Assembly: GCA_003117195.1 (NCBI GenBank)
Contig: BDSI01000115.1
Location: 1-64,000 of the forward strand
Direction of reading: 5' to 3'
Source of the DNA: Eudorina sp. 2006-703-Eu-15
Lineage: Eukaryota; Chlorophyta; Chlorophyceae; Chlamydomonadales; Volvocaceae
Length of the DNA stretch: 64,000 nucleotides
Part shown: piece by piece, positions 16,101-48,879 of the stretch
Numbering within the stretch: position 1 is the stretch's first letter
Layout of the letters: each line of letters starts with the position of its first letter
The notes under the pieces: generated by a model
Told to the model about the DNA's origin: nothing
Databases searched by the model: none
The model's input: only the letters and a program-made list of their open reading frames with translations
Program-made: the position numbers and the translations under genes

Positions 16101-19100
16101 TGATGGTTGTCCCAGGCTTCCCGGTATGATCCTGGGGGCGTGGCATGCTTCCCGGTTTGGTTGTTGTCCGTCTCCTTGTGCCACTTGGCACCTGCCCAAC
16201 GAACGTGCGTATGCTACCTTGCTTCGTGTTGCGTGCGTGCACCTGTCCTCCAAGCTGCATTTATGACCGCGTGCCTCTGCGCCAGCTGCATGTGTCACGC
16301 CAGTTTGCGGTAAGCACGGTGACCCGTACATTACCCGTGCTTGAGCAAGGGTAAAAATAATGTACGGTGAACCGTGACTTACCCCTTGCTCGAGGCCTTG
16401 CGCGGAGGTCCAGAAGCGCAGTTGCGGCCGTTTCCGGGGCTGAACGGCGTGTCGGGGGCCTAGATGGCGGCCGCTGCACCCTGAGCAAGGGTCGCGCACG
16501 GCCCCTTGCTCAGGCTGCCGCGGGGCCGGGTTGTTTGTCTCTCCCTTGTGTCCGTATCTGCCCCAGACATCCCCAATAATATAAATTTTATTAATATATT
16601 TAATTGCGTTTGTACTGTCTCAAAATGAAGAAAAATTGTGTACCCTAGCTCGAGCAAGGGGTAAGCCACGGTTCACCGTACATTATTTTCACCCTTTCTC
16701 GAGCACGGGTCATGTACGGGTCACCGTGCTTATTGATGCCTCGTCACGCACGCATGCTAGCTAATGGCGCAGTGGAAAGGATTGATTGATTAATGATGTA
16801 CATATGATGAGTCGCAGCTAGCTGTTCTACGTACTCCTTAATGTATCGCTGCGCTTAGGTTTCTTACATCACAGATAGACTTACATGCAGCAGCAAGTTG
16901 GACGTTGAGGTAACGAACTTACTGTCGGTAGTCCTCAACGTAAGCCCGACATGCATAAACAAGTGGCAAGGACGCTGACATGCATGAGGGCGACATCCAC
17001 GGGCCGCATGCATGCGTGTCACCGAGCGACGGAGCTCTGAAAGCAGCTAACTGGCCTGCGCCAAACCATCAGCAATCGGCATCATCGATGCACCTATAGG
17101 CATGTGTGGTTCCCTACTTGACGGAACCCGAGATCGCCCGCTCCCCCTCGCCCCTGCTGGGCGCCGGCTTTCTCGTTCGTGCTTCTGTTTGACAATCAAG
17201 CCGCCGCCCATCCTCCACATACACCTGCCAAATCAACGAAACTATCTATGCGCAGGGAGACACTTTGAACGTGTATTCCGTGGCTTGGAGCCCCACCGGC
17301 CGGCAGCTGGCCAGCGGGAATCGGGAGAACAACATCTGGGAGAGCAGCATCCGGGTGTGGGACGCCGAGAGTGGAGAATGCATGGCGACGTTGGAGGTCG
17401 GTGTGGAGTAGACACGTAGGGGTGTTGTTTGTGTGAAGTGCGCGATGCAAGTGTATGTGCAGCAGGGCTCGCAGCGAGGGCAAGGTGTGCTTCCGACCCT
17501 GCCTGGCACGCACCCTCGCCCTTGGCACCTGCCCAACGAACGATCGTATGCTACCTTCCTTCGTGTTGCGTGCGTGCACCTGTCCTCCAAGCTGCACTTA
17601 TTACCGCGTGCCTCCGCGCCAGCTGCATGTGTCACGCACGGTAGCTATCGGCGCAGTGGAAAGGATTCATTGCTTGATGAATGCGTGTATGTATGTACAT
17701 ATGATGAGTCGCAGCTAGCTGTACTACGTACTTCTTTATGTATCGCTGCGCTTATGTTTCCTACATCACAGATAGACGTACATGCAGCAGCAAGTTGGAC
17801 GTTGAGGTAACGAACTTGCTGTCGGTAGTCCTCAACGTAAGCCCGACATGCATAAAAAGTGGCAAGGACGCTGACATACATGCATGAGGGCGACATCCAC
17901 GGGCCGCATGCATGCGTGTCACCGAGCGACGACGGAGCTCTGAAAGCAGCTAACTGACCTGCGCCAAACCATCAGCAATCGGCATCATCGATGCACCTAT
18001 AGGCATGTGTGGTTCTCTACTTGACGGAACCCGCGATCGCCCGCTCCCCCTCGCCCCTGCTGGGCGCCGGCTTTCTCGTTTGTGCTTCTGTTTGACAATC
18101 ATCCCGCCGCCCATCCTCCACATACACCCTGCCAAATCAATGATCCTATCTATGCGCAGGGACACACTTCGAGCGTGGATTCCGTGGCTTGGAGCCCCAC
18201 CGGCCGGCAGCTGGCCAGCGGGAGTCGGGACTGCAGCATCCGGGTGTGGGACGCCGAGAGTGGAGAATGCATGGCGACGTTGAAGGTCGGTGTGGAGTAG
18301 ACACGTAGGGGTGTTGTTTATGTGAAGTGCGCGATGCAAGTGTATGTGCAGCAGGGCTCGCAGCGAGGGCAAGGTGTGCTTCCGACCCTGCCTGGCACGC
18401 ACCCTCGCCCTTGGCACCTGCCCAATGAACGTGCGTATGCTACCTTCCTTCGTGTTGCGTGCGTGCACCTGTCCTCCAAGCTGCACTTATTACCGCGTGC
18501 CTCCGCGCCAGCTGCATGTGTCACGCACGCTAGCTATTGGCGCAGTGGAAAGGATTGATTGATGATTGCGTGTATGTATGTACATATGATGAGTCGCAGC
18601 TAGCTGTACTACGTACTTCTTTATGTATCGCTGCGCTTATGTTTCCTACATCACAGATAGACGTACATGCAGCAGCAAGTTGGACGTTGAGGTAACGAAC
18701 TTGCTGTCGGTAGTCCTCAACGTAAGCCCGACATGCATAAAAAGTGGCAAGGACGCTGACATACATGCATGAGGGCGACATCCACGGGCCGCATGCATGC
18801 GTGTCACCGAGCGACGACGGAGCTCTGAAAGCAGCTAACTGACCTGCGCCAAACCATCAGCAATCGGCATCATCGATGCACCTATAGGCATGTGTGGTTC
18901 CCTACTTGACGGAACCCGCGATCGCCCGCTCCCCCTCGCCCCTGCTGGGCGCCGGCTTTCTCGTTCGTGCTTCTGTTTGACAATCATCCCGCCGCCCGTC
19001 CTCCACATACACCCTGCCAAATCAACGAACCTATGCGCAGGGACACACATCGATTGTATGCTCCGTGGCTTGGAGCCCCACCGGCCGGCAGCTGGCCAGC

Positions 19101-22100
19101 GGGAGTGAGGACAGCAGCATCCGGGTGTGGGACGCCGAGAGTGGAGAATGCGTGGCGACGTTGAAGGTCGGTGTGGAGTAGACACGTAGGGGTGTTGTTT
19201 ATGTGAAGTGCGCAAGTGTTGTGTATAGTCCACCGATTTGGTGGCGTCAAAAGACACCGCCGATTTGGAGACCTGCCGTAGATTATATACAGGGCTGCAC
19301 GTCACAGATGACGTGTCCTCTTCCCGAATATTCTCGGGCGACAGGTTCGCGACCGTCCAGACGAAGTTCCAGAAGATCCGAAGAAGTCTCCAATCGGGTT
19401 GCCAGTCAGCGCCAGGGAACAGTCCCAGCCATAGCCAGATGCTATGACCCCCGCCTATGCACAGCGCATAGACTTCCGCAGACAGATGCGGCATTAATAC
19501 AACAGAGGCCGACAGAACGTAGCTCAGGCGCTACTCGGCATTACGAACAGCTCGTCGAACAGTTGGCCTGTACGTCGGGCAAGTCAGACTACGTTCAATA
19601 GTAGTTTCGGACGTATCAGACGTATTACCAGAATTATTGTCAGACCAATTATTATTAGATATTATAACAATGTTAAATATTACAGAATTAGTGCGTATCA
19701 GATTACGCAGCATACAACAACTATCCCCCCTCAGGATGCAGCGTCCCCGCTGCATGGAAGGGAGCCAGATTAGGCACGGCATAGAGCGGCAATTATGACT
19801 TACCTGTACCGCTCAACTTACCTTAGCCGTGGCCCGTAACCGAGCTTCCTCCAGCAGGGGTTTCATGTCAGGGGTAAAGTTCCGTGCAGGCTCCCAGCTA
19901 TTGTGCTCAGAGGAATACCCAGCCCATTTGACAAGGTATTCGTGCACAGTGCGCTTACGCCCGCTCTTGCCCACCCGTCGCGCTCGGTAATCCAGAATGC
20001 GCTCAACAGCATAGGTGGTTTGCTTGCCCTTAAGCCAGTCAACAGGCCCAGGCTCCGTCACAGGCGGAGTGTCAGTAGATTCAGGTTCAGGATCAGAGCC
20101 ACGGTACGGCCGAACCAGAGACACATGAAACGTGGGGTGAATGCGCATGTCAGATGGTAGCTGAAGTTCAACAGCGACAGATCCCACCATGCGTACGACA
20201 GGATATGGACCCACCCAACGTGGCAACAGCTTACGAGACCCTTCAGCCAGGGAACGCAGGTTCTTGGTGCTCAGCATGACCAACTGTCCCTTGCGGAAGG
20301 TGACGTCCCGTTTAGATTTGTTGTAGTAGTCAGCCGTCCGTTGCTGTGCAGCATCCAAGCAAGATCTGGCATCTGCTATCCGGGACACAAACGACTTGAC
20401 AAAAACCTTAGCAGCAGGTACGTTTACATCCAACTCACGCCACACAGGCAGAGCCGGGTTGTAACCGTAATTCAGGAAGAAAGGACTCTTGCCAGTCGAA
20501 CGGTTCACAGCATTGTTGATAGCAAACTCAGCAGCAGTCAGGTAGGTGTCCCAGGCAGATGGTGTGCGGCCAGCGAAGTTACGGAGCATGTCGCCCAGAA
20601 CAGTCAGAATTCACACGCTCAGTCTGGCCATCAGATTGTGGATGGTATGCGGTGGACAGATTCACACGCATCCCAACCAAAACACCCAGCGCGGCCCAAA
20701 ACTTACTCGCAAACTGAGTACCACGATCAGACACAACGCTCTTTGGCACGCCGTGCAATCGTACGACGTTATCAAAGAACAGTCGTGCAGTGTCTTCAGC
20801 AGTGCAAGCAGTCGTGGTAGGGGCAAGATGCACCATCTTCGTCAAGCGATCAACAAGTACGAGTACGGCGTCGTATCCCCCCTCAGTTTTGGGCAGCGAG
20901 ACAACGAAGTCCAGGGAAACGCTCTCCCACGGAGCATCCGGCACAGACAGAGGCTGCAGATGCCCATGAGGCTTATCAGACAGGGACTTGTTGCGTTGAC
21001 AGAGATCGCAGGACTGCACATAGTTCTCGACATCCTTGGCGAGCCGAGGCCACCAGAACTGGCGTCGGATCAGGTCCAACAGACGGACGTAACCAGGATG
21101 CCCAGCCAAAGGACCTTCATGAAAACGGGAAAGGAGCTCGCGACGCAAAGAGTCATCGTTAGGAACGACAACCTGCTTGTACGAGCCCTCAGTACGGACC
21201 CACAGACCGTTTTCGCGACGCAGATGTCCCGTATTGACTGGATCAGAGAACCATGGGTCAGTGACATACGCACGCTTCAGACGCGACGCAAAGTCAGACG
21301 CGGCAAAAGGTTGGCTCGCGGTAGACTGACGACGCGTGGCAACAGACAGGATGGCAGCATGCAAGGAAGGATGCCGACTGAGTGCATCAGCAATATTCAT
21401 AGAGCCAGACAGATACTCCCAGTTGAAGTTGAACCGAGCCAGATACTCCATCCAGCGGGCCTGGCGACGATTCAAGGAGGGAACCCCTTGCAGGAAGGTT
21501 AGGGGCTTATGGTCAGTCTTGAGCACAAACGGTCGGCCCTCCAAGTAGCAGCGCCATTCCTTCAGAGCGTGCAAGACAGCAAGCAACTCCTGCTCACCCG
21601 TGGTGTAACGGGTCTCAGCACCAGAGAACTTCTTACTCGTGAACGCAATGGGTCGACCTTCTTGCAACAACACGGCACCAGTGCCATGCAATGATGCGTC
21701 GGTAACGACTTCAACGCGGAACGGTAACGAGTAATCAGGGAAGCGCAGAATGATATCATCAGCAACAGCACGCTTCAGGGTGTCGAACGCCTTCTGACAC
21801 TCAGGGGTCCAGGCATCCGCCGAAGTGAAGGCACCCTTACGCGTCAGGTTCGTGAGCGGAGCCGCATTAACCGAATAACGCTCGATGAACTTACGGAAGT
21901 AGTTAGTCAGACCCAGAAACTTCCGCAGCTCCTGAAGGTTGGTAGGCGTCGGCCAGTCCCGTACGACAGCAGATTTACGGGGATCCATGCGAACGCCATC
22001 CTTGGAGACGATGTGTCCCAAGTATTCAACCTGAGGCTCGGCCCAGTGGCACTTAGAGCGTTTGGCATACAGTTGCTCACGGCGCAGAACGTCAAAAACA

Positions 22101-28100: not shown

Positions 28101-31100
28101 TAGGCATGTGTGGTTCCCTACTTGACGGAACCCGCGATCGCCCGCTCCCCCTCGCCCCTGCTGGGCGCCGGCTTTCTCGTTTGTGCTTCTGTTTGACAAT
28201 CATCCCGCCGCCCATCCTCCACATACACCCTGCCAAATCAACGAACCTATCTATGCGCAGGGACACACTTCGGTCGTGTATTCCGTGGCTTGGAGCCCCA
28301 CCGGCGGGCGGCTGGCCAGCGGGAGTCAGGACAACAGCATCCGGGTGTGGGACGCTGGGAGTGGAGAATGCGTGGCGACGTTGGAGGTCGGTGCGGAGTA
28401 GACACGTAGGGGTGTTGTTTGTGTGAAGTGCGCGATGCAAGTGTATGTGCAGCAGGGCTCGCAGCGGCCGACGAGAGGGCAAGGAGTGCTTCCGTCCCTG
28501 CCTGGCACGCACCCTCGCTCTTGGCACCTGCCCAACGAACGATCGTATGCTACCTTCCTTCGTGTTGCGTGCGTGCACCTGTCCTCCAAGCTGCACTTAT
28601 TACCGCGTGCCTCCGCGCCAGCTGCATGTGTCACGCACGGTAGCTATCGGCGCAGTGGAAAGGATTCATTGCTTGATGAATGCGTGTATGTATGTACATA
28701 TGATGTATGAGTCGCAGCTAGCTGTACTACGTACTTCTTTATGTATCGCTGCGCTTATGTTTCCTACATCACAGATAGACGTACATGCAGCAGCAAGTTG
28801 GACGTTGAGGTAACGAACTTGCTGTCGGTAGTCCTCAACGTAAGCCCAACATGCATAAAAAGTGGCAAGGACGCTGACATGCATGAGGCCGACATCCACG
28901 GGCCGCATGCATGCTTGTCACCGAGCGACGGAGCTCTGAAAGCAGCTAAATGACTTGCGCCAAACCATCAGCAATCGGCATCATCGATGCACCTATAGGC
29001 ATGTGTGGTTCCCTACTTGACGGAACCCGCGATCGCCCGCTCCCCTTCGCCCCTGCTGGGCGCCGGCTTTCTCGTTCGTGCTTCTGTTTGACAATCATCC
29101 CGCCGCCCGTCCTCCACATACACCCTGCTAAATCAACGAACCTATGCGCAGGGACACACATCGATGGTATTCTCCGTGGCTTGGAGCCCCATCGGCCGGC
29201 AGCTGGCCAGCGGGAGTCGGGACTGCAGCATCCGGGTGTGGGACGCCGAGAGTGGAGAATGCATGGCGACGTTGAAGGTCGGTGTGGAGTAGACACGTAG
29301 GGGTGTTGTTTATGTGAAGTGCGCGATGCAAGTGTATGTGCAGCAGGGCTCGCAGCGGCCGACGAGAGGGCAAGGAGTGCTTCTGTCCCTGCCTGGCACG
29401 CACCCTCGCTCTTGGCACCTGCCCAATGAACGTGCGTATGCTACCTTCCTTCGAGTGCGTGCACCTGTCCTCCAAGCTGCACTTGCTTATTACCGCGTGC
29501 CTCCGCGCCAGCTGCATGTGTCACGCACGGTAGCTATCGGCGCAGCGGAAAGGATTGTTTGATTAATGCGTATATGTATGATGAGTCGCAGCTAGCTGTA
29601 CTATGTACTCCTTAATGTATCGCTGCGTTTATGTTTCCTACATCACAGATAGACGTAGATGCAGCAGCAAGTTGGACGTTGAGGTAACGAACTTGCTGTC
29701 GGTAGTCCTCAACGTAAGCCCAACATGCATAAAAAGTGGCAAGGACGCTGACATGCATGAGGCCGACATCCACGGGCCGCATGCATGCTTGTCACCGAGC
29801 GACGGAGCTCTGAAAGCAGCTAAATGACTTGCGCCAAACCATCAGCAATCGGCATCATGCACCAATAGGCATGTGTGGTTCCCTACTTGACGGAACCCGC
29901 GATCGCCCGCTCCCCTTCGCCCCTGCTGGGCGCCGGCTTTCTCGTTCGTGCTTCTGTTTGACAATCATCCCGCCGCCCGTCCTCCACATACACCCTGCCA
30001 AATCAACGAACCTATGCGCAGGGACACACATCGATGGTATTCTCCGTGGCTTGGAGCCCCACCGGCCGGCAGCTGGCCAGCGGGAGTCGGGACAGCAGCA
30101 TCCGGGTGTGGGACGCCGAGAGTGGAGAATGCATGGCGACGTTGGAGGTCGGTGCGCAGTAGACACGTAGGGGTGTTGTTTATGTGAAGTGCGCGATGCA
30201 AGTGTATGTGCAGCAGGGCTCGCAGCGGCCGACGAGAGGGCAAAGAGTGCTTCCGTCCCTGCCTGGCACGCACCCTCGCTCTTGGCACCTGCCCAACGAA
30301 CGAGCGTATGCTACCTTCCTTCGTGTTGAGTGCGTGCACCTGTCCTCCAAGCTGCACTTATTACCGCGTGCCTCCGCGCCAGCTGCATGTGTCACGCACG
30401 GTAGCTATCGGCGCAGCGGAAAGGATTCATTGCTTGATGAATGCGTGTATGTATGTACATATGATGTATGAGTCGCAGCTAGCTGTACTACGTACTTCTT
30501 TATGTATCGCTGCGCTTATGTTTCCTACATCACAGATAGACGTACATGCAGCAGCAAGTTGGACGTTGAGGTAACGAACTTGCTGTCGGTAGTCCTCAAC
30601 GTAAGCCCGACATGCATAAAAAGTGGCAAGGACGCTGACATACATGCATGAGGGCGACATCCACGGGCCGCATGCATGCGTGTCACCGAGCGACGGAGCT
30701 CTGAAAGCAGCTAACTGACTTGCGCCAAACCATCAGCAATCGGCATCATCGATGCACCTATAGGCATGTGTGGTTCCCTACTTGACGGAACCCGCGATCG
30801 CCCGCTCCCCCTCGCCCCTGCTGGGCGCCGGCTTTCTCGTTTGTGCTTCTGTTTGACAATCATCCCGCCGCCCATCCTCCACATACACCCTGCCAAATCA
30901 ACGAACCTATCTATGCGCAGGGACACACTTCGGTCGTGTATTCCGTGGCTTGGAGCCCCACCGGCCGGCAGCTGGCCAGCGGGAGTCAGGACAGCAGCAT
31001 CCGGGTGTGGGACGCCGAGAGTGGAGAATGCGTGGCGACGTTGGAGGTCGGTGCGCAGTAGACACGTAGGGGTGTTGTTTGTGTGAAGTGCGCGATGCAA

Positions 31101-34100
31101 GTGTATGTGCAGCAGGGCTCGCAGCGAGGGCAAGGAGTGCTTCCGTCCCTGCCTGGCACGCACCCTCGCTCTTGGCACCTGCCCAATGAACGTGCGTATG
31201 CTACCTTCCTTCGTGTTGAGTGCGTGCACCTGTCCTCCAAGCTGCACTTATTACCGCGTGCCTCCGCGCCAACTGCATGTGTCACGCATGCTAGCTATTG
31301 GCGCAGTGGAAAGGATTGCTTGATTAAAGTGTGTATGTATGTACATATGATGTATGAGTCGCAGCTAGCTGTACTACGTACTTCTTTATGTATCGCTGCG
31401 CTTATGTTTCCTACATCACAGATAGACGTACATGCAGCAGCAAGTTGGACGTTGAGGTAACGAACTTGCTGTCGGTAGTCCTCAACGTAAGCCCAACATG
31501 CATAAAAAGTGGCAAGGACGCTGACATACATGAGGCCGACATCCACGGGCCGCATGCATGCTTGTCACCGAGCGACGGAGCTCTGAAAGCAGCTAACTGA
31601 CCTGCGCCAAACCATCAGCAATCGGCATCATCGATGCACCTATAGGCATGTGTGGTTCCCTACTTGACGGAACCCGCGATCGCCCGCTCCCCCTCGCCCC
31701 TGCTGGGCGCCGGCTTTCTCGTTTGTGCTTCTGTTTGACAATCATCCCGCCGCCCATCCTCCACATACACCCTGCCAAATCAACGAACCTATCTATGCGC
31801 AGGGACACACTTCGGTCGTGTATTCCGTGGCTTGGAGCCCCACCGGCGGGCGGCTGGCCAGCGGGAGTCAGGACAACAGCATCCGGGTGTGGGACGCTGG
31901 GAGTGGAGAATGCGTGGCGACGTTGGAGGTCGGTGCGGAGTAGACACGTAGGGGTGTTGTTTGTGTGAAGTGCGCGATGCAAGTGTATGTGCAGCAGGGC
32001 TCGCAGCGGCCGACGAGAGGGCAAGGAGTGCTTCCGTCCCTGCCTGGCACACACCCTCGCTCTTGGCACCTGCCCAACGAACGATCGTATGCTACCTTCC
32101 TTCGTGTTGCGTGCGTGCACCTGTCCTCCAAGCTGCACTTATTACCGCGTGCCTCCGCGCCAGCTGCATGTGTCACGCACGGTAGCTATCGGCGCAGTGG
32201 AAAGGATTCATTGCTTGATGAATGCGTGTATGTATGTACATATGATGTATGAGTCGCAGCTAGCTGTACTACGTACTTCTTTATGTATCGCTGCGCTTAT
32301 GTTTCCTACATCACAGATAGACGTACATGCAGCAGCAAGTTGGACGTTGAGGTAACGAACTTGCTGTCGGTAGTCCTCAACGTAAGCCCAACATGCATAA
32401 AAAGTGGCAAGGACGCTGACATGCATGAGGCCGACATCCACGGGCCGCATGCATGCTTGTCACCGAGCGACGGAGCTCTGAAAGCAGCTAAATGACCTGC
32501 GCCAAACCATCAGCAATCGGCATCATCGATGCACCTATAGGCATGTGTGGTTCCCTACTTGACGGAACCCGCGATCGCCCGCTCCCCTTCGCCCCTGCTG
32601 GGCGCCGGCTTTCTCGTTCGTGCTTCTGTTTGACAATCATCCCGCCGCCCGTCCTCCACATACACCCTGCTAAATCAACGAACCTATGCGCAGGGACACA
32701 CATCGATGGTATTCTCCGTGGCTTGGAGCCCCACCGGCCGGCAGCTGGCCAGCGGGAGTCGGGACTGCAGCATCCGGGTGTGGGACGCCGAGAGTGGAGA
32801 ATGCATGGCGACGTTGAAGGTCGGTGTGGAGTAGACACGTAGGGGTGTTGTTTATGTGAAGTGCGCGATGCAAGTGTATGTGCAGCAGGGCTCGCAGCGG
32901 CCGACGAGAGGGCAAGGAGTGCTTCTGTCCCTGCCTGGCACGCACCCTCGCTCTTGGCACCTGCCCAATGAACGTGCGTATGCTACCTTCCTTCGTGTTG
33001 AGTGCGTGCACCTGTCCTCCAAGCTGCACTTGCTTATTACCGCGTGCCTCCGCGCCAGCTGCATGTGTCACGCACGGTAGCTATCGGCGCAGCGGAAAGG
33101 ATTGTTTGATTAATGCGTATATGTATGATGAGTCGCAGCTAGCTGTACTATGTACTCCTTAATGTATCGCTGCGTTTATGTTTCCTACATCACAGATAGA
33201 CGTAGATGCAGCAGCAAGTTGGACGTTGAGGTAACGAACTTGCTGTCGGTAGTCCTCAACGTAAGCCCAACATGCATAAAAAAGTGGCAAGGACGCTGAC
33301 ATGCATGCATGAGGGCGACATCCACGGGCCGCATGCATGCGTGTCACCGTGCGACGGAGCTCTGAAAGCAGCTAACTGACCTGCGCCAAACCATCAGCAA
33401 TCGGCATCATCGATGCACCTATAGGCATGTGTGGTTCCCTACTTGACGGAACCCGCGATCGCCCGCTCCCCCTCGCCCCTGCTGGGCGCCGGCTTTCTCG
33501 TTTGTGCTACTGTTTGACAATCAAGCCGCCGCCCATCCTCCACATACACCCTGCCAAATCAACGAACCTATGCGCAGGGACACACTTCGGTCGTGTATTC
33601 CGTGGCTTGGAGCCCCACCGGCGGGCGGCTGGCCAGCGGGAGTTGGGACAACAGCATCCGGGTGTGGGACGCTGGGAGTGGAGAATGCGTGGCGACGTTG
33701 GAGGTCGGTGCGGAGTAGACACGTAGGGGTGTTGTTTGTGTGAAGTGCGCGATGCAAGTGTATGTGCAGCAGGGCTCGCAGCGAGGGCAAGGAGTGCTTC
33801 CGTCCCTGCCTGGCACGCACCCTCGCTCTTGGCACCTGCCCAATGAACGTGCGTATGCTACCTTCCTTCGTGTTGCGTGCGTGCACCTGTCCTCCAACGA
33901 AGCTGCACTTATTACCGCGTGCCTCCGCGCCAGCTGCATGTGTCACGCACGCTAGCTATCGGCGCAGTGGAAAGGGTCGATTGACTAATGCGTGTATGTA
34001 TGTACATATGATGAATCGTAGTTAGCTGTACTACGTACTTCTTTATGTATCGCTGCGCTTATGTTTCCTACATCAGAGATGGACGTACATGCAGCAGCAA

Positions 34101-36440
34101 GTTGGACGTTGAGGTAACGAACTTGCTGTCGGTAGTCCTCAACGTAAGCCCGACATGCATAAAAAGTGGCAAGGACGCTAACATGCATTAGGCCGACATC
34201 CACGGGACGCATGCATGCGTGTCACCGAGCGACGGAGCTCTGAAAGCAGCTAACTGACCTGCGCCAAACCATCAGCAATCGGCATCATCGATGCACCTAT
34301 AGGCATGTGTGGTTCCCTACTTGACGGAACCCGCGATCGCCCGCTCCCCCTCGCCCCTGCTGGGCGCCGGCTTTCTCGTTTGTGCTTCTGTTTGACAATC
34401 ATGCCGCCGCCCGTCCTCCACATACACCCTGCTAAATCAACGAACCTATGCGCAGGGACACACATCGATGGTATTCTCCGTGGCTTGGAGCCCCACCGGC
34501 CGGCAGCTGGCCAGCGGGAGTCGGGACTGCAGCATCCGGGTGTGGGACGCCGAGAGTGGAGAATGCATGGCGACGTTGGAGGTCGGTGCGCAGTAGACAC
34601 GTAGGGGTGTTGTTTATGTGAAGTGCGCGATGCAAGTGTATGTGCAGCAGGGCTCGCAGCGGCCGACGAGAGGGCAAGGAGTGCTTCTGTCCCTGCCTGG
34701 CACGCACCCTCGCTCTTGGCACCTGCCCAATGAACGTGCGTATGCTACCTTCCTTCGAGTGCGTGCACCTGTCCTCCAAGCTGCACTTGCTTATTACCGC
34801 GTGCCTCCGCGCCAGCTGCATGTGTCACGCACGGTAGCTATCGGCGCAGTGGAAAGGATTCATTGCTTGATGATTGCGTGTATGTATGTACATATGATGT
34901 ATGAGTCGCAGCTAGCTGTACTACGTACTTCTTTATGTATCGCTGCGCTTATGTTTCCTACATCACAGATAGACGTACATGCAGCAGCAAGTTGGACGTT
35001 GAGGTAACGAACTTGCTGTCGGTAGTCCTCAAAGTAAGCCCAATCAACATGCATAAAAAGTGGCAAGGACGCTGACATGCATGAGGGCGACATCCACGGG
35101 CCGCATGCATGCGTGTCACCGAGCGACGGAGCTCTGAAAGCAGCTAACTGACCTGCGCCAAACCATCAGCAATCGGCATCATGAACCAATAGGCATGTGT
35201 GGTTCCCTACTTGACGCAACCCGCGATCGCCCGCTCCCCCTCGCCCCTGCTGGGCGCCGGCTTTCTCGTTCGTGCTTCTGTTTGACAATCAAGCCGCCGC
35301 CCATCCTCCACATACACCTGCCAAATCAACGAAACTATCTATGCGCAGGGACACACTTCGGACGTGTATTCCGTGGCTTGGAGCCCCACCGGCCGGCAGC
35401 TGGCCAGCGGGAGTCGGGACTGCAGCATCCGGGTGTGGGACGCCGAGAGTGGAGAATGCATGGCGACGTTGGAGGTCGGTGCGGAGTAGACACGTAGGGG
35501 TGTTGTTTGTGTGAAGTGCGCGATGCAAGTGTATGTGTAGCAGGGCTCGCAGCGGCCGACGAGAGGGCAAGGAGTGCTTCCGTCCCTGCCTGGCACGCAC
35601 CCTCGCTCTTGGCACCTGCCCAACGAACGTGCATATGCTACCTTCCTTCGTGTTGAGTGCGTGCACCTGTCCTCCAAGCTGCACTTGCTTATTACCGCGT
35701 GCCTCCGCGCCAGCTGCATGTGTCACGCACGCTAGCTATCGGCGCAGTGGAAAGGATTCATGGCTTGATTAATGTGTGTATGTATGTACATATGATGAGT
35801 CGCAGCTAGCTGTACTACGTACTTCTATATGTATTGCTGCGCTTATGTTTCCTACATCACAGATAGACGTACATGCAGCAGCAAGTTGGACGTTGAGGTT
35901 ACGAACTTGCTGTCGGTAGTCCTGAATGTAAGCCCGACATGCATAAAGAAAGTGGCAAGGACGCTGACATGCATGAGGGCTATGAGGCCGACATCCACGG
36001 GCCGCTTGCATGCGTGTCACCGAGCGACGGATCTCCAAAAGCAGCTGACTGGCCTGCGCCAAACCATCAGCTACATCAGCAATAATCGGCATTATCCATA
36101 AATAGGCACGTGTGGTTCCCTACTTGGACCGTACGTTCCTTGGCCCACCGCGTCTGATGACACCTATATTTAACAAGCTTGCTATGCTTGGTGCGCACCA
36201 TACATGGCACGACCGGCACCCTAACTATGCAGACGTTCTCATCATCTTTTGTTTGGCCGCACAGCCAATCTCTCCCTCGCGCCCCGCCCGTCTGCCTGGC
36301 CTTACTGCACTGATGGGCAGGTTAGCATCGCGGGTGTGACTCAGCAAGCGAGTCCGTCCGTTTGGACATCGGACCACGCCAGCGGGGAGTGGGAGAAGCA
36401 TGAACGGGTCAGCACGCAATATCAGGCATTTCCACAATGA
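728..36440 (+). CDS. NACHT-WD40 repeat gene (NLR-like), about 20 exons over 35.7 kb
   Basis: This entry covers the whole gene; its exons are listed separately. Predicted order: unrecognised N-terminal domain (about residues 1-190), NACHT NTPase (Walker A 222-230, Walker B D332-E336, sensor-like R372), post-NACHT helical region to about residue 800, 14 WD40 blades (about 593 residues) and a 39-residue tail. NACHT proteins are STAND ATPases that oligomerise when their repeat domain binds a ligand. In fungi the NACHT-WD40 proteins HET-D, HET-E and HET-R control self/non-self recognition. A sensor role here is inference. Exon phases fit throughout (2, 2, 0, 2, then 0), apart from one extra nucleotide at about 8706. 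Additional exons upstream of 728, or in the 7.9-kb intron after 9396, cannot be excluded. The frameshift leaves open whether the allele is functional. Confidence 0.75.
1542..1946 (+). CDS. NACHT-WD40 gene exon 2: NACHT start with Walker A
   Basis: The acceptor ACGCACGCAG at 1532-1541 restores phase 2 from exon 1. The exon encodes a helical linker (VLVKHFDPKKL, FNFTSDV, FLPGSRDWLFEEF) typical of the segment before NACHT. The P-loop GGPGMGKST follows (residues about 222-230; lysine K228 should bind nucleotide phosphates). The exon ends in the HYFCKHDDR motif. The donor is a consensus GTAAGT at 1947, leaving two bases. Splicing to the exon at 2648 completes an Asn codon and gives the conserved run HDDRNRSDP, so this junction is well supported. 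Confidence 0.85.
2648..2819 (+). CDS. NACHT-WD40 gene exon 3: NACHT middle
   Basis: The acceptor CTCGCAG at 2641-2647 completes the Asn codon begun in exon 2. The product contains VVMIRTFAYQLAVAVPELR, the NACHT helix after the RxxR/RN motif, then a helical stretch ending FQNLLLEPLEEIK, the usual lead-in to the Walker B strand. The donor is AAAG|GTAAAG at 2820, phase 0. Confidence 0.85.
3236..3281 (+). repeat. 46-bp inverted arm, left
   Basis: Begins CGTCCACAAATGGTGTGGA and ends GTTGTGGAA. It matches the reverse complement of 5885-5930 at 44 of 46 positions. The arm itself contains two short hairpins, TCCACA/TGTGGA and TTCCACAAC/GTTGTGGAA. The two arms enclose the 184-bp satellite, like terminal inverted repeats of a 2.7-kb element. 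No target duplication was recognised. Confidence 0.7.
3530..5360. repeat. 184-bp satellite, about 10 head-to-tail copies
   Basis: Units start at the sequence GTGCCTGATCGG (GCGCCTGATCGG in two copies) at 3551, 3735, 3921, 4105, 4291, 4475, 4659, 4842, 5026 and 5208, so the period is 182-186 bp. The copies differ by only a few substitutions and 1-3 bp indels, implying recent homogenisation. The G-rich half of each unit has short direct GGCGG and GGGTTG motifs. The array lies wholly inside an intron of the NACHT gene. Confidence 0.95.
5885..5930 (-). repeat. 46-bp inverted arm, right
   Basis: Reverse-complement partner of 3236-3281 with two mismatches. It lies about 520 bp beyond the end of the 184-bp satellite. 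Confidence 0.7.
5965..6240 (+). repeat. Dispersed repeat family R1, partial copy 1
   Basis: Shares ordered segments (GCGGGACCCCTACATTCCGT, AGTGAAAGGGTG, GGGTGTCGTTG, ACGCCTCTGCACTA, TCCGTCTGTC) with copies near 11.5, 15.3 and 40.9 kb. This is the most diverged copy. No coding capacity was recognised, so it is probably a non-autonomous mobile element. Confidence 0.55.
6649..7037 (+). CDS. NACHT-WD40 gene exon 4: Walker B and sensor
   Basis: Follows the acceptor ACATGCAG in phase 0. It encodes LVYVIDALDEVA, a NACHT Walker B with D332, D335 and E336 for Mg2+ and ATP hydrolysis. Next comes IRFLFTSRPESHI, whose arginine (about R372) is the sensor-1-like residue of STAND ATPases. A helical stretch ends LLLRKSEGLFVYLAR, the end of the NACHT core. 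The donor CACG|GTGAGC at 7038 leaves phase 2. Confidence 0.9.
7038..8335 (+). other. 1.3-kb intron of the NACHT gene
   Basis: Donor GTGAGC; acceptor GCCACAG at 8329-8335. The earlier AG at 8306 (TTTGCAG) gives the wrong phase, while the AG at 8335 completes the Arg codon and continues into LLDDLKG. I see no repeat family or further exon in it. Confidence 0.65.
8336..9396 (+). CDS. NACHT-WD40 gene exon 5: post-NACHT region, with apparent frameshift at about 8706
   Basis: The first frame encodes LLDDLKGKPRWSLNDLDAFP, a segment typical after NACHT, and continues to LYQLGSLYSQRDGRI. The motif that should follow, WMVFHKSFHDFLEL, is in the next frame, so there is one extra nucleotide in CATCCTGG at 8703-8709. 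The second frame stays open to 9396 and includes LLAALVAPLV and FLAAVFSSGHGHDIIRTLLRL, the helical region before WD40 domains. The donor is AAG|GTACGC at 9397. Counting lengths with the extra base removed, the exon ends exactly in phase 0, as the WD40 exons need. Either the allele is a recent pseudogene or the base is a sequencing error. Confidence 0.75.
9723..10237 (+). mobile_element. Miniature LTR retrotransposon (TRIM/SMART-type), 515 bp
   Basis: Two identical 53-bp terminal repeats (9723-9775 and 10185-10237) begin TGTAAGCCGG and end GGGAGCCCA, so they have TG...CA ends. The polypurine tract GAAAAGGGGGGGAG (10171-10184) abuts the right repeat. A 5-bp target duplication, CATAC, flanks the element (9718-9722 and 10238-10242). 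One or two bases after the left repeat is TGGGTTCGCAACC, a plausible primer-binding site starting with TGG. The interior has no ORF of note, so it must depend on another element for mobility. Identical repeats imply recent insertion. Confidence 0.85.
9820..9985 (+). other. tRNA-like promoter boxes inside the miniature LTR element
   Basis: GGTTCGATTCC (about 9871) and GGTTCGAATCC (about 9961) both fit the RNA polymerase III B-box consensus. Each ends a stretch resembling the 3' half of a tRNA. ATGGTATCGAGACC, about 45 bp before the first box, could be an A-box-like element. No complete cloverleaf could be folded by eye, so no tRNA gene is called. Confidence 0.3.
10909..11160 (+). repeat. TTCACT-motif repeat, copy 1
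   Basis: Starts at CACTCTGGGAATCCGGC, then carries many short near-palindromes of the form CTTCRTTAnnAAGTGAAG about 25-35 bp apart. A related copy in the opposite orientation lies at about 14,170-14,325 and shares the CACTCTGGGAATCCGGC edge. Origin unknown. Confidence 0.55.
11513..11825 (+). repeat. Dispersed repeat family R1, copy 2
   Basis: Nearly identical at its start to the copy at 15.35 kb (GCCGGAAAAAGGGCGGGCC, GCGCAAGAGTGTGAGAGAG, TGCCATGGAGGGTGTCGTTG). It lacks the middle third and resumes at CAGTTGCACGCCCGCAGCAG. It therefore looks like an internal deletion derivative. Confidence 0.65.
11848..12540. repeat. 20-bp minisatellite, roughly 33 copies
   Basis: Unit GTGGCACGCGGTCTCAGGCC with single-base variants and a few units extended by GCGT (GGCCGTGCGTGGCACG). 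Because 20 is not a multiple of three, all three frames are open and give LRPWHAVSGRGTRSQAVARG-type artefactual peptides. It lies in the long intron of the NACHT gene. Confidence 0.95.
12960..13640 (-). pseudogene. 3' fragment of a non-LTR (LINE) retrotransposon ORF2
   Basis: The 226-residue reading frame ends with the zinc-binding motif seen at the C-terminus of LINE reverse transcriptases: RTCRVCEGG, EDESHVLMECPVY (pattern C-x2-C...H-x4-C). Upstream is a helical region containing WMGVEYSVDDHKSKLEHIA and LMRFRLGSWDL, as found after the RT domain. The reverse transcriptase and endonuclease are missing. A second minus frame (about 13,504-13,761) has EEEIRCWLESDN-like sequence, suggesting a frameshifted continuation. 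It is a 5'-truncated, dead insertion inside the NACHT intron, antisense to the gene. Confidence 0.7.
14170..14325 (-). repeat. TTCACT-motif repeat, copy 2 (inverted relative to copy 1)
   Basis: The reverse complement shares CACTCTGGGAATCCGGC plus multiple CCCTTCACT/GTGAAG motifs with 10,909-11,160. Just to its left, GTAATAAGTTGATGTT is duplicated in tandem (about 14,110-14,140). Confidence 0.5.
14371..14960. mobile_element. Diverged foldback/MITE copy related to 16,301-16,742, with a nested 98-bp MITE
   Basis: Begins CAGTTTGCGGTAAGCACGG exactly like the element at 16,301, but its interior matches that element in reverse order (CCTGAGCAAGGGGC, GGCCCCCGACACGCC, GGGGGCTGAACGGCGTGTCG). The 98-bp element at 14,424-14,521 is inserted in its left arm. 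The right boundary is uncertain. Confidence 0.5.
14424..14521. mobile_element. 98-bp MITE, copy 1
   Basis: Bounded by the perfect 10-bp inverted repeat GTAGTAGGTG/CACCTACTAC. It is almost identical to 43,203-43,300 (same length). There is no coding capacity. It is nested in the foldback element at 14,371. Confidence 0.7.
15347..15835 (+). repeat. Dispersed repeat family R1, fullest copy
   Basis: About 490 bp, from GCCGGAAAAAGGGCGGGCC to TGCTAGTCCTTTGCATTTTG. The same block order recurs at 5.97, 11.5 and 40.95 kb. No TIR, LTR or target duplication was recognised and there is no ORF with recognisable similarity. Confidence 0.65.
16301..16742. mobile_element. 442-bp foldback (MITE-like) element
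   Basis: Imperfect 84-bp inverted arms at 16,311-16,394 and 16,649-16,732 both read TAAGCACGGTGACCCGTACAT... to CTTGCTCGAG from their outer ends. A 7-bp direct repeat, GTCACGC, flanks the element (16,294-16,300 and 16,743-16,749) and equals the uninterrupted unit sequence, so it is a target duplication. The interior is non-coding. It sits in the intron unit just before the first WD40 exon. Confidence 0.8.
17256..17396 (+). CDS. WD40 exon 1 (atypical, 47 codons)
   Basis: Acceptor ATGCGCAG, donor GAG|GTCGGT, phase 0 at both ends. Compared with the other blades it has Asp instead of the GH histidine, Glu instead of the tetrad Asp, and five extra residues in the b-c turn (GNRENNIWESSIRVWD). The frame is preserved. 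As the first blade of the array it may cap the propeller. Confidence 0.75.
17788..17838 (+). other. Conserved interleaved inverted repeats in the intron unit (pseudoknot order)
   Basis: A = CAGCAAGTT (17,788-17,796), B = ACGTTGAGG (17,799-17,807), A' = AACTTGCTG (17,813-17,821), B' = CCTCAACGT (17,830-17,838). A pairs with A' and B with B', each 9 bp and perfect. Their order A-B-A'-B' is that of an H-type pseudoknot or of two mutually exclusive hairpins. The block recurs in essentially every unit, with mismatches mainly in the edge units (about 16,920, 35,030 and 35,920). Confidence 0.7.
18160..18285 (+). CDS. WD40 exon 2
   Basis: 126 bp, phase 0-0, acceptor CGCAG, donor AAG|GTCGGT. Canonical 42-residue blade: GH at 1-2, SVAWSP at 8-13, tetrad D24, VWD at 29-31. 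Variable positions: S5, D7, R23, C25, M38, K42. Confidence 0.9.
19041..19166 (+). CDS. WD40 exon 3
   Basis: 126 bp, phase 0-0, with the same splice sites. Variable positions: I5, C7, E23, S25, V38, K42. The chromovirus insertion begins 50 bp after its donor. Confidence 0.9.
19217..19719 (-). repeat. 3' LTR of the chromovirus
   Basis: TGTTGTGTATAGTCC at the outer edge and GCATACAACA at the inner edge (plus-strand reading), 503 bp. Directly inside it lies the polypurine tract, seen as ACTATCCCCCCTC on the plus strand (19,720-19,732; GAGGGGGGATAGT on the coding strand). This placement defines it as the 3' LTR. Confidence 0.75.
19813..20589 (-). CDS. Chromovirus integrase C-terminus with chromodomain (frameshifted from the polyprotein)
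   Basis: 258 residues. The beginning MLRNFAGRTPSAWDTYL continues the integrase core after the catalytic Glu region. FLNYGYNPALP and a GPYPVVRMVGSVAVELQLP segment form the integrase C-terminal domain. The last about 75 residues (YAVERILDYR, YLVKWAGYSSEHNSWEPARN) are a chromodomain, which in chromoviruses directs integration to marked chromatin. It overlaps the upstream ORF by 11 bp in another frame. A 1-nt change near 20,600 separates the two, so it was once a single polyprotein. Confidence 0.85.
   Translation of the reverse strand: MLRNFAGRTPSAWDTYLTAAEFAINNAVNRSTGKSPFFLNYGYNPALPVWRELDVNVPAAKVFVKSFVSRIADARSCLDAAQQRTADYYNKSKRDVTFRKGQLVMLSTKNLRSLAEGSRKLLPRWVGPYPVVRMVGSVAVELQLPSDMRIHPTFHVSLVRPYRGSDPEPESTDTPPVTEPGPVDWLKGKQTTYAVERILDYRARRVGKSGRKRTVHEYLVKWAGYSSEHNSWEPARNFTPDMKPLLEEARLRATAKVS
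20579..25339 (-). CDS. Chromovirus gag-pol polyprotein (1,586 residues)
   Basis: A Pro/Ala-rich N-terminus is followed by a retrotransposon gag domain (around residues 165-345). The CCHC knuckle CLRCASNAHRADTCP starts at about C462. The aspartic protease motif is ADTGAS (D703). The reverse transcriptase active site is YLDDILVF (1060-1063), followed by RNase H (VVTDASLHGTGAVLLQ, LKTDHKPL). The integrase zinc-binding HHCC motif starts near H1407 (HPGYVRLLDLIRRQFWW, CDLCQRNK), then the DDE core has SLDFVVSLP, VVSDRGTQF and HPQSDGQTERVN. Gag and pol are in one frame. The frame breaks after ERVN at about 20,600, where the integrase should continue. Confidence 0.92.
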   Translation of the reverse strand: MFAPNYPNVAYPPVWAGIAPFLGNAPYLGWGQLPGQVPAAVPNAAPQRVNRWGPPVRWGPVPPAVPVPAANAVPVFNAAAPAIFGAAAQPFPVPPGASNVPVPVPAPTAAVPEPVHSVDGTPAVLGSGHAVNDNGAAAGAGGSAGQRAPASAEKGADDEVLKMNISVPKLSLPADLKHADPVKIAARTRAFVRDARNYFAVVKGGHLDNMRCLFLATALEGAAKAWHDSWTTAKETFTSEELLTALLSRFAPRILSAEDEARHKLASGKHRMRSGDKVAAYHSRFEAIISAIPDVSDSEKRFWFHKGLTAELAGDCASDSLGQTFPTFQDLLTFAFGMERRLEHKRLAEQQARSSVRLHALTAQDMSDLSDAEDVPPAAGAKRRAPTAAAAATGAAKGGDGGRRGKQQSGGAARASHKGKDDGWAQPRSKRPRRNNRRDQEWLDKFCCTRAEYNYRKGEGLCLRCASNAHRADTCPLLKGEKKAWEVAQVDAKGESPGSAVSRGALPDLSAFRAARAIVPDVLRQVEGVVGRRFSLDARTARAGFDAFCNYFAPCVPSLASVDLGGHTIWFTPSSLRELQLQVARYRSCKRQRPDTAAGVLLPEFMSRKAASLLAGFKRVLQFRPGTVLFNGVDVTGRPTPLPGFPYAAEVWYDAPRKGPVVPDEGDPHISALLSPGAAALTGSGVPLVSISAAGHRMTALADTGASDDFISVSEVERLGLRPTASARSHVTLADGGKQAILGRVTLRLAVGPLRFTVQPYVLPKLTDVATYILGSSTLSQFGAVVDYPARALRLRKGTLSCKVPFCSGDRACAEPPCVNFAAAAICRHEEPEAIGRKAAVRLLRKGAHALLVRPKLQLNAAVQPVAPTDPDLQALLEEYADVFQEIPGLPPMRPVDHTIPLVPGAQPVSRPMYRLSPLELDEVKRQVTDLLKKGMIRPSTSPYSAPILFVGKKDGGLRMCIDYRGLNSVTVKNRYPLPRVDDLLDKLRGAAYFSSIDLQQGYNQIRIAESDIPKTAFRTPFGHYEYTVLSFGSVNAPATFQAVMDRTFRQYIDKFVVCYLDDILVFSMTREEHLQHLRLVFDVLRREQLYAKRSKCHWAEPQVEYLGHIVSKDGVRMDPRKSAVVRDWPTPTNLQELRKFLGLTNYFRKFIERYSVNAAPLTNLTRKGAFTSADAWTPECQKAFDTLKRAVADDIILRFPDYSLPFRVEVVTDASLHGTGAVLLQEGRPIAFTSKKFSGAETRYTTGEQELLAVLHALKEWRCYLEGRPFVLKTDHKPLTFLQGVPSLNRRQARWMEYLARFNFNWEYLSGSMNIADALSRHPSLHAAILSVATRRQSTASQPFAASDFASRLKRAYVTDPWFSDPVNTGHLRRENGLWVRTEGSYKQVVVPNDDSLRRELLSRFHEGPLAGHPGYVRLLDLIRRQFWWPRLAKDVENYVQSCDLCQRNKSLSDKPHGHLQPLSVPDAPWESVSLDFVVSLPKTEGGYDAVLVLVDRLTKMVHLAPTTTACTAEDTARLFFDNVVRLHGVPKSVVSDRGTQFASKFWAALGVLVGMRVNLSTAYHPQSDGQTERVNSDCSGRHAP
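25340..25760 (-). other. Chromovirus 5' leader and anomalous 5' end
   Basis: Expected to contain the 5' LTR and primer-binding site. Only the outer 21-22 bp resemble the 3' LTR. No inner TG...CA boundary and no clear tRNA primer-binding site were found. A short ORF (28 codons, MEADTQPDRELLMADL...) starts at about 25,670 on the minus strand. The end may have been rearranged or may derive from another element. Confidence 0.5.
26476..26601 (+). CDS. WD40 exon 4
   Basis: 126 bp, phase 0-0. Variable positions: M5, F7, Q23, S25, M38, E42. First member of the duplicated four-unit block; counterpart is exon 8 (R23 there). Confidence 0.9.
27375..27500 (+). CDS. WD40 exon 5
   Basis: 126 bp, phase 0-0. 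Variable positions: V5, Y7, Q23, S25, V38, E42. Protein identical to exon 9. Confidence 0.9.
28261..28386 (+). CDS. WD40 exon 6
   Basis: 126 bp, phase 0-0. Variable positions: V5, Y7, Q23, N25, V38, E42, with the GR variant at 16-17 and G33. Protein identical to exon 10. Confidence 0.9.
29152..29277 (+). CDS. WD40 exon 7
   Basis: 126 bp, phase 0-0. Variable positions: M5, F7, I14 (Thr elsewhere), R23, C25, M38, K42. Counterpart of exon 11. Confidence 0.9.
30022..30147 (+). CDS. WD40 exon 8
   Basis: 126 bp, phase 0-0. Variable positions: M5, F7, R23, S25, M38, E42. Confidence 0.9.
30921..31046 (+). CDS. WD40 exon 9
   Basis: 126 bp, phase 0-0. Variable positions: V5, Y7, Q23, S25, V38, E42 (same protein as exon 5). 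Confidence 0.9.
31803..31928 (+). CDS. WD40 exon 10
   Basis: 126 bp, phase 0-0. Variable positions: V5, Y7, Q23, N25, V38, E42, with GR at 16-17 and G33 (same protein as exon 6). Confidence 0.9.
32694..32819 (+). CDS. WD40 exon 11
   Basis: 126 bp, phase 0-0. Variable positions: M5, F7, R23, C25, M38, K42. Confidence 0.9.
33578..33703 (+). CDS. WD40 exon 12
   Basis: 126 bp, phase 0-0. Variable positions: V5, Y7, W23 (unique in the array), N25, V38, E42, with GR at 16-17 and G33. Confidence 0.9.
34456..34581 (+). CDS. WD40 exon 13
   Basis: 126 bp, phase 0-0. Variable positions: M5, F7, R23, C25, M38, E42. Its downstream intron shares the TTCCTTCGAGTGCG deletion with the unit after exon 7. 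Confidence 0.9.
35349..35474 (+). CDS. WD40 exon 14 (last blade)
   Basis: 126 bp, phase 0-0. Variable positions: D5 (unique), Y7, R23, C25, M38, E42. Followed by a full intron unit that decays at about 36.1 kb. Confidence 0.9.
36321..36440 (+). CDS. Probable terminal exon of the NACHT-WD40 gene
   Basis: The acceptor CTGATGGGCAG at 36,310-36,320, with a pyrimidine-rich lead-in, opens a phase-0 stretch of 39 codons starting VSIAGVTQQAS and ending YQAFPQ, then TGA at 36,438-36,440. It contains SVWTSDHASGEW, vaguely like the end of a WD40 blade (VWD...SGE). It is the first open phase-0 exon after the array and is followed about 150 bp later by a TGTAA signal. Not confirmed by homology. Confidence 0.45.
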   Translation, partial: VSIAGVTQQASPSVWTSDHASGEWEKHERVSTQYQAFPQ

Positions 36441-40296: not shown

Positions 40297-40354
40297 ACTG
40301 GCCAGCAGCTGGCGAGCCAGCGGGAGTGATGACAACAGCATCCGGGTGGAAGAC
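40297..40354 (+). pseudogene. WD40 exon relic
   Basis: ACTGGCCAGCAGCTGGCGAG and GGGAGTGATGACAACAGCAT match the array exons, giving TGQQLAS...GSDDNSIRVED. A CAGC duplication breaks the frame and the VWD tryptophan codon is lost. It lies 4.8 kb beyond the last functional blade and has no splice sites or flanking intron-unit sequence. It is a decayed single exon from this or a sister gene. Confidence 0.7.
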
Positions 40355-40950: not shown

Positions 40951-41410
40951 AGCAAGCCGGGAAAACTTTACAACTAAAACTCTGTTACCGCGCAAGTGTG
41001 TGAGAGATTGAAAGGGAGCCATTGAGGGTGTCGTTGATTAGCGTGCATTAGATTCAGCAAGCTCAAGCGCCTCGAAACCAACCTGCAGTACGCGCCGCCG
41101 ATCACCGAATCGGCATTATCGTAACGCTAGACGCCTCTGCACTTCCACATCCGTCTGTCAAACAGATAATCACAACGCAAGCTTGCTTGAAGCATTCTTG
41201 TTTTGCCTTGAAACTGTAGTTGTTTGGTCCGGCCAGCATGCAACCCTTCAGTTGCACGCCCGCAGCAGACGTGAACCTGTAAAGTTTGCTATTTATAGTA
41301 CATAACAATGTAAGGCTAAAACAGGCTGCGAAAAAAAGCCGTGGTGAGACCCGGACTTCGGGCCATCGGAACTGGAGAACTTGTTGGTACTCGGTATGCT
41401 ATCCCTTTTG
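40951..41410 (+). repeat. Dispersed repeat family R1, copy 4
   Basis: Same block order as at 15.35 kb (ACCGCGCAAG, GGGTGTCGTTGATTAG, GCATTATCGTAA, CGCCTCTGCACT, CAGTTGCACGCCCGCAGCAG, GAGACCCGGACTTCGGGC) with the first 40 bp missing. Confidence 0.65.
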
Positions 41411-41814
41411 CTTCAATACATATTGTTGAATTTCATTCATCTGGCAAGACAGAAAGGCAAATCTTGCTATTGGTGGCATCTTGGATGTTACAACACCAGA
41501 ACACTGTGGAAGTAAATTTAGCACGAAGGCCCATTCCTCATCCAAGTATTCAATATGCGGCACCTGTTGAAACAAATATGAGCGCGAGAGGCTTTGGGTG
41601 GACGTTGACCCGGGTCCATGGAAACCGCGGAGCTTTACTTTGACCGTTTGCGCGCAAAGAATTTTTGTCAGCCAAACCAAGGATACCTTGCAATAGAGGA
41701 CAATTCATATGACAAACATTGCGAATTAGTTTAGCGGATAATTAACCTTTTGCCGTTACCCAGGCACGGCGCACACACGCACGACGCACACACACGGACA
41801 TAGGCAATCGTAGG

Positions 41815-41856
41815 GGGCGGGGCCCCCCGAACGCGCTTCGCGCTGGGGCCCCGCCC
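41815..41856. repeat. GC-rich palindrome
   Basis: GGGCGGGGCCCC and GGGGCCCCGCCC form a 12-bp perfect stem. The loop CCGAACGCGCTTCGCGCT can itself pair (GCGC/GCGC). Its composition is like the short palindromic repeats that inflate volvocine organelle genomes. Confidence 0.8.
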
Positions 41857-42615
41857 AAAAACGGCGTTGCTTGATTGGGGCCACTCTATCTTTGAGCCCC
41901 GCATCGGCTTTACTTGGCAACTCACGCATGCAGGATATGCAGTTTCTGTATGTGTCTTTAATTGTTCATTACGCGCGCGCGGTTGTTCGGTATCGGTGAT
42001 GAGGGCTTCAGTGGGAGAGGCAGCTGCGGACGACACATGTGTGTACATGCATATGTGTGCGTTGGCCGCTGGGCGGCTATCTATGTATATGTCCATGACC
42101 GCAGCGGAGGCGGCCGTCATGGGTATGTCGATACATATGATGTAACACGCACTGGGCTCGCGGACGGACTTAATTATGGACGCGAGACCACTGTTGTTAC
42201 ACCCGGAGGGCCGCGCATCGGTATGTCGGTGCATCAGACCTCACGCATCAGCGCGCGGCTGCGCCACATACATACACAGCACGCAGCCGGCGCTAGCGTG
42301 TTGCCGCGCGTGGACATCTATCGAGAAGTTGTGCATGGCTGTCGGTCGTCATCACCCACCCCTGAACGTTCTTAGTGCCGAACTACGTACTCGGGCGGTT
42401 TGTCATTAGGCGTGGCGGTTGTGATTGAGAAATGTGTGGCAGTCGTCATGCAGGCTGGAGAGGTTTCAGGAAAACATTTGAACGTTGTTGTAACGTAAGC
42501 AAGCGGCCGCGTCCTTACGTATCCTGCCTTAATTGTCTCTTTCGCTCGCCCCACCAAATTCTATGTATGGTGTGCGTATCCATGACCGCAGGCTCCGGTT
42601 TCCTTTGTATGAGAT

Positions 42616-43122: not shown

Positions 43123-43202
43123 TATGAGATCCTTCTAGTTTTAGTCACTGTCGCTCAAGCGGCAATGCCGGCTGGGTGCAGGAATTTGCTTTTCCAAGTC
43201 GT

Positions 43203-43300
43203 GTAGTAGGTGTCGTACAATGGTCGGCCCTACTCCTCAAATGCGGTGCGAAGCACTGTCCCAGCATTTCGAGAAGCCTTTGCCAGCTCTCACCTACTAC
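43203..43300. mobile_element. 98-bp MITE, copy 2
   Basis: Same 10-bp inverted ends GTAGTAGGTG/CACCTACTAC and the same length as 14,424-14,521. AAGTC occurs on both sides and may be the target duplication with a 2-bp offset on the left. Confidence 0.7.
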
Positions 43301-46690: not shown

Positions 46691-46714
46691 CTAGTTTCGG
46701 ACCTGTATACGGTC

Positions 46715-48864: not shown

Positions 48865-48879
48865 ATCTGTTGGACGGAG

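Follow-up and report, generated by a model that had tools for sequence, protein, structure and literature searches.

A predicted NLR-like NACHT-WD40 gene in Eudorina with one WD40 blade per exon and a tandem array of near-identical exon-intron units

The first 64,000 nucleotides of contig BDSI01000115.1 of Eudorina sp. 2006-703-Eu-15 (hereafter the window; the 406-kb contig is designated C115) harbor a NACHT-WD40 gene that is predicted to be NLR-like and whose putative sensor comprises 14 WD40 blades, each encoded by its own predicted phase-0 exon. In our preferred reading, to which we assign a probability of roughly 0.58, unequal crossing-over between units likely rebuilt this array, and diversifying selection likely altered four codons on the top face of each blade. 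The combination of an NPHP3_N match (8e-13) with 14 phase-0 blade exons bears out the type of gene put forward in the original prediction, namely a NACHT-WD40 gene with one blade per predicted exon.

The exons of the array are highly regular. The pattern GGACAC...GTCGGT has 13 matches in the window, compared to 0.24 expected by chance, and a 14th exon (U1), which begins with GGAGAC instead of GGACAC, was found besides these exact matches. All 14 exons are located on the plus strand. U1 (17256-17396) is 141 bp long due to a 15-bp in-frame insertion, and the other 13 are 126 bp each: U2 (18160-18285), U3 (19041-19166), U4 (26476-26601), U5 (27375-27500), U6 (28261-28386), U7 (29152-29277), U8 (30022-30147), U9 (30921-31046), U10 (31803-31928), U11 (32694-32819), U12 (33578-33703), U13 (34456-34581), and U14 (35349-35474). 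The acceptor GCGCAG and the donor GTCGGT are conserved in all of them. Every exon has a length that is a multiple of three, starts and ends in phase 0, and encodes one WD40 repeat, most of which read GHTSxVxSVAWSPTGRQLASGSxDxSIRVWDAESGECxATL. Pairs of the 126-bp exons differ by 0-16 bases and by 0-10 of 42 residues, with ten amino-acid positions varying among the 13. Because all exons share phase 0, the gain, loss, or exchange of units through the introns would keep the frame. Past the donor, the fifth codon is an in-frame stop in 14/14 exons, including the terminal U14, such that any retained intron would end the protein after the preceding blade. A 52-bp remnant of a blade exon, with 83% identity, was also observed at 40297-40348, 4.8 kb beyond the last blade exon.

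The introns are also near-identical. Blade exons are spaced 870-904 bp apart in 12 of the 13 intervals, and the U3-U4 interval measures 7,435 bp and contains a Ty3-type retroelement. Substitution divergence between pairs among 13 introns (that of U3 left out and that of U14 incomplete) ranges from 0.1 to 6.4%. When an intron was used as the query against the 181-Mb genome (3,033 contigs), in a search that skips very common words, all 17 matches were on C115, within 16184-36126. These include a partial first unit with intron homology but no exon (16184-17255, plus strand), which is interrupted by ~450 bp (16301-16748), and the last intron-homologous stretch of the array (35475-36126, plus strand), which is incomplete. 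The original prediction had described 14 exons, 13 of them 126 bp long, in units of ~885 bp with near-identical introns, and the splice sites, spacing, and divergence agree with this description. Its location for the gene, 16160-36115, is near the limits of intron homology, but the NACHT part lies outside, at 722-9396.

Units U4-U7 have a second copy, U8-U11, that comprises both exons and introns, consistent with the earlier view that whole units are copied. The four pairs diverge by 0.1, 0.3, 0.3, and 1.7% in the following intron and have 1, 0, 0, and 1 exon differences (U9 is identical to U5, and U10 to U6; U8 and U11 are the partners of U4 and U7). Between the blocks, eight differences were found over 26434-29451. 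The copy begins on the left at 26433-26543 and ends on the right at 29452-29763. The latter boundary is intronic, and the former falls in either the last 43 intron bases or the first 67 bases of exon U4, so it may be inside this exon.

The retroelement in the U3-U4 intron is of the Ty3-type with a chromodomain, spans ~6.5 kb on the minus strand (19214-25760), and was delimited by the break in intron homology. Family matches were obtained for protease, RT, RNase H, integrase, and chromodomain, and the gag match was below the cut-off. A repeat finder and self-BLAST detected no LTRs; an LTR end common to both sides was located at 19699 and 25740. On visual inspection, the element is probably flanked by a 5-bp target duplication (GCAAG); its left LTR measures ~500 bp, and most of its right LTR seems to be missing. 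Two other repeats were observed in the window, namely an 8-bp microsatellite, (CCCTCCCA)n, at the contig start (4-709), directly before the first visible NACHT exon, and a tandem array with a 184-bp period and 9.9 copies (3543-5360) within the intron that separates NACHT exon 3 from exon 4. A family scan of 43501-51000 (three plus frames) and 52001-63000 (two of three minus frames) found no neighboring genes.

Variation among the blades is concentrated in a few codons. The most variable of the 42 are codons 5, 7, 25, and 23, and no other of the 111,930 four-codon sets reaches their sum. The value of pi is 0.37 at these four codons versus 0.033 at the other 38, and the introns have pi of 0.021 (400 bp upstream) and 0.033 (340 bp downstream). 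Polymorphism was found at 10 of the 12 positions of the four codons versus 79 intron columns (Fisher p = 1.4e-8, with the intron length taken as 760 and the 79 columns counted over 808). The remaining exon resembles the intron, with 9/114 positions polymorphic (p = 0.5). Relaxed constraint could not raise variation above the intron level if the introns evolve almost neutrally, so either selection or a targeted process is required. The pN/pS ratio is 0.82-0.87 for whole exons, 0.5 for the other 38 codons, and only 1.09-1.16 for the four codons, since silent differences are also high there (pS 0.35-0.37). The suggestion that the array diversifies a recognition surface is supported in part, by the four hypervariable codons in one genome, but not by a pN/pS of only ~1.1.

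The positions themselves are not special. As a control, we examined two further WD40 genes from the same genome, each with several blades in one open frame. Positions 5/7/23/25 rank 1/5/2/10 and 2/4/3/6 in variability there, so the variation in these genes likewise peaks at roughly these positions. At the paralogous loci, the ranks are 2/1/5/8 for C62 (based on 9/14 blades), 1/2/4/5 for C223 (10/14), and 2/3/6/13 for C15 (9/13).

The NACHT part precedes the array on the plus strand. The first visible exon (722-1101, with an ATG at 728) is supported by splice sites and by matches to the paralog C62 and to a homolog from Pleodorina starrii (P0001). It is followed by the exon with Walker A (GGPGMGKS; 1542-1946), exon 3 (2648-2819), the exon with Walker B (VIDALDE; 6649-7037), and exon 5 (8336-9396), which encodes the C-terminal part of the NACHT region. 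A further 5' exon was seen at C62, and its counterpart in the window would fall beyond the contig start. The NPHP3_N match, obtained from a single-frame translation of window 1-9900 in which stops were replaced by X, together with both Walker motifs, identifies a NACHT-type ATPase. Matches in the genome were obtained with the NACHT profile PF24883, and the NACHT family PF05729 had no match in the genome. A Pfam search in two of the three forward frames of 6001-17400 returned nothing but a weak piece of exon 4. For the NACHT exons of C115 and C62, dN/dS is 0.41 (pairwise counting over six pieces, with exon 5 as two). Exon 5 ends in phase 0 beside phase-0 blades at both loci.

The window copy is, however, frameshifted before the blades. 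Compared to the intact paralog C62, which is open at this point, exon 5 carries a 4-nt insertion at ~8704-8711, and an in-frame stop follows at 8775-8777. The predicted product from the visible ATG has 593 residues and lacks the blades, and 227 codons past the frameshift remain open in the other frame. Neither this frameshift nor the retroelement was part of the original prediction. The frameshift is either a recent break that made the gene a pseudogene or an assembly or base error, and the window copy may be inactive. The gene could be dead, with its function ended by the frameshift and its units expanding neutrally at present, as a local satellite would. The insertion and stop ahead of the blades fit this explanation, as do the 7.9-kb intron before U1, the retroelement within the array, and the fact that the absence of frame-breaking indels from the exons is not significant (0 seen versus 2.3 expected at the intron rate, P = 0.098, a weak signal). 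Against it, all 14 blade exons and their splice sites are intact, the four-codon variation exceeds the intron level by more than 10 times, which is not expected from neutral drift of units, and the other 38 codons retain a pN/pS of 0.5. These three features could be relics of selection that predates a recent break, and we regard a dead gene as unlikely.

The genome contains at least six NPHP3_N loci. Of these six, five (C115, C62, C223, C15, and C144) are accompanied by exons that encode approximately one blade each and have matching splice sites. Such exons were also found at C4, where a NACHT match is absent, and C9 has only weak blades without matching splice sites. Using a model trained on these loci, and with matches judged spurious left out, we counted 14 blades in C115, C62, and C223 (two in one exon of C223), 13 in C15 and C144, and seven in C4. 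With 14 blades counted at each of three loci, the free change in blade number that had been envisaged is not supported. The 14 blade exons of C62 are 120-135 bp in length. The 13 blades of C144 are divided into groups of eight and five, 23 kb apart, and one of the eight has an E-value above 1; within C144:216000-168001 (L024-L028), these groups were observed at reversed positions 10101-18246 and 41186-44350. As one blade per exon is common across loci and largely a family trait in this genome, it is older than the C115 array, in which the novel feature is recent tandem copying that takes the introns along.

Outside this genome, the best NACHT relatives of the C62 query were found in Pleodorina starrii (Volvocaceae; 53% identity) and the volvocine alga Gonium pectorale (38%). 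In Pleodorina, NACHT and blades are joined in one protein, in which three near-identical blades show variation at seven positions, including the same four. A protein search with blades was of little use for orthology; 7,719 of the 7,991 scored candidates passed, and the best 120 were generic WD40 repeats where named. We also inferred a DNA tree of 50 blade exons, sampled from C115 (14/14), C62 (14/14), C223 (12/14), and C15 (10/13), with C144 and C4 left out. All 14 C115 blades form one clade (100/99). The C62 blades form no clade in this tree but do so in the protein tree (94/76), and those of C223 and C15 mix. The three Pleodorina blades form a clade in the protein tree (98/91). These topologies show within-gene homogenization in C115 and among the three Pleodorina blades rather than family-wide, and the signal of concerted evolution in C115 could instead reflect one recent expansion.

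Homogenization at other loci appears to have a different scale. The C15 blades at 9268 and 11085 (L022 and L023) share 98.9% identity across a stretch of just 189 bp (9213-9401 and 11030-11218 in reversed coordinates), with no longer surrounding match. For most C62 blade pairs, similarity ends near the exon edges, and a few extend up to ~80 bases at some 72%. The end of similarity near exon edges at C15, and for most pairs at C62, suggests gene conversion of exon size at these loci, and the C15 pair likely represents a recent event of this kind. This near-identity is relevant to a second alternative, in which short exon segments are the target of mutation or conversion, and the hypervariability of the four codons is due to this process rather than to selection on binding. 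Such a process would be compatible with the high silent differences at these codons and with the observation that the variants differ by several bases together, in short blocks. However, the variant segments of the window were absent from the examined stretches of the other six loci (gene strand, up to 2 mismatches in 21 bases), and V6 and D24, which lie between the variable pairs, do not vary among the 13 exons that are 126 bp long. We find a targeted process rather improbable. Finally, an assembly artefact in unit number or order is very unlikely. Misassembly from short reads is frequent for fungal HNWD arrays (PMC12222747), and in U4/U8, U5/U9, and U6/U10 both the exon and the intron after it are almost the same; against an artefact, the window contains no N, all other intron pairs diverge by 1.7-6.4%, and the retroelement anchors one intron.

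Under the preferred reading of an array rebuilt by unequal crossing-over and diversified by selection, the 14 exons would be spliced into one message with NACHT. The 14 blades, a number that is enough for two seven-bladed propellers and was counted at three loci (C115, C62, and C223), may fold into two such propellers. The variable blade face would then recognize a ligand, and NACHT-driven signaling may proceed as in APAF1 or HET-E, perhaps via a helical N-terminal domain.

The N-terminus of the Pleodorina homolog starts with MGCNVSK, and an open frame upstream of C62 (L033) with MGAGAST; both fit a myristoylation signal. MGAGAST is a possible start of C62, provided that this open frame is the first exon. 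The N-terminal exon of C62 is 42% identical to the Pleodorina N-terminus and had no match in a Pfam search. For the Pleodorina N-terminal region, the best Pfam match was MLKL_N (E = 0.0064, below the cut-off), and no HET domain was found there by Pfam; the 5' end of the window gene itself is off the contig. A PDB sequence search with this region gave weak matches alone, mostly to T4 lysozyme, and a homolog search with it recovered nothing but itself. An AlphaFold2 model of the Pleodorina homolog, based on a 14-sequence alignment, has a mean pLDDT of 66.8 and a pTM of 0.51. NACHT and blades are mostly confident in this model, and residues 1-150 are helical with low confidence (blocks of 24-65). 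The five best solved matches in a Foldseek search with the model were all APAF1 (E = 7.7e-15 to 1e-13, about 800 columns), with low overall TM values of 0.15-0.27. An MLKL-like death domain or another membrane-acting domain at the N-terminus is a weak lead from these predictions.

A broader scenario is that the gene represents a volvocine cassette receptor that arose independently of those in fungi and brown algae. It would be a double propeller with 14 slots, in which blade exons are exchanged via homologous introns and each blade carries a hypervariable four-residue patch, such that intron recombination and splicing would yield a repertoire for recognition. We offer this scenario tentatively and consider it possible but doubtful.

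Among known systems, APAF1 shares the arrangement of a STAND ATPase followed by WD40 blades and is the best solved-structure match of the Pleodorina model, and we know of no exon-cassette array in it. The HNWD genes of fungi have tandem 126-bp repeats in one exon without introns, whereas each C115 blade has its own exon in an 885-bp unit, and no HET domain was found in the N-termini of the relatives of C115. The HNWD/NWD proteins of Podospora anserina (HET-D, HET-E, and HET-R) share with C115 a NACHT domain, highly alike WD40 repeats of 42 residues, and concerted evolution (PMC1805685; PMC2873952; PMC12222747). As in the HNWD type, the highly alike 42-residue repeats of C115 have four hypervariable positions. 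The strongly selected codons of Podospora are 7, 9, 25, and 27, which flank the conserved 8 and 26 (PMC1805685). Alignment of the printed HET-E repeat (PMC12222747), together with the residues tabled in PMC2873952, places the Podospora register two residues later, such that these four correspond to codons 5, 7, 23, and 25 of C115. HET-E has been modeled as 11 alike and three cryptic blades in two propellers (PMC12222747). In the text of two of these reports, the word "intron" (PMC2873952) or "introns" (PMC12222747) occurs 0 times.

The original prediction knew of no described case, which does not hold in kind. The candidate receptors of brown algae share with C115 one repeat per exon and a single phase. 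Their LRR-ROCO genes have one repeat per exon in uniform phase and undergo exon shuffling, and four sites on the binding face are under selection (PMC11378527); exon shuffling in NB-ARC-TPR genes is cited in the same report. These are LRR or TPR solenoids with 72-bp phase-2 exons and a ROCO or NB-ARC core in an unrelated lineage, whereas C115 has WD40 blades, 126-bp phase-0 exons, and a NACHT (NPHP3_N) core. The LRR genes of Tetrahymena with 90-bp exons also consist of tandem exon-intron units of uniform length and phase with retroelements beside them, and unequal crossing-over has been proposed for these arrays (PMC6564038). They differ in numbering thousands, in being phase 2 and not NACHT-WD40, and in the mostly purifying selection reported (PMC6564038). 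A green-algal NACHT with C-terminal WD40 was reported in 2016 for Chlamydomonas reinhardtii; the word "exon" occurs 0 times and no array is described in the available part of that report (PMC4773052). In vertebrate NLRP3, modular exons also encode the sensor repeats, which are LRRs; these exons are described for alternative splicing, and near-identical intron units are not mentioned in the part of the source available (PMC6642158). Among the matches listed from titles and abstract starts of the open-licence literature, none describes a green-algal, phase-0 WD40 array with near-identical introns. The principle of one repeat per exon, shuffled and with a selected binding face, is already published for brown algal LRR-ROCO genes. 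Since every blade of C115 is accompanied by an intron that serves as a near-neutral reference, it becomes possible to measure within one gene how selection acts on a recognition surface. C115 unites the self-alike WD40 sensors of fungal NLRs with the one-repeat-per-exon scheme of brown algae in a third lineage, and provides a green-algal system for possible genetic tests of NLR-like recognition.
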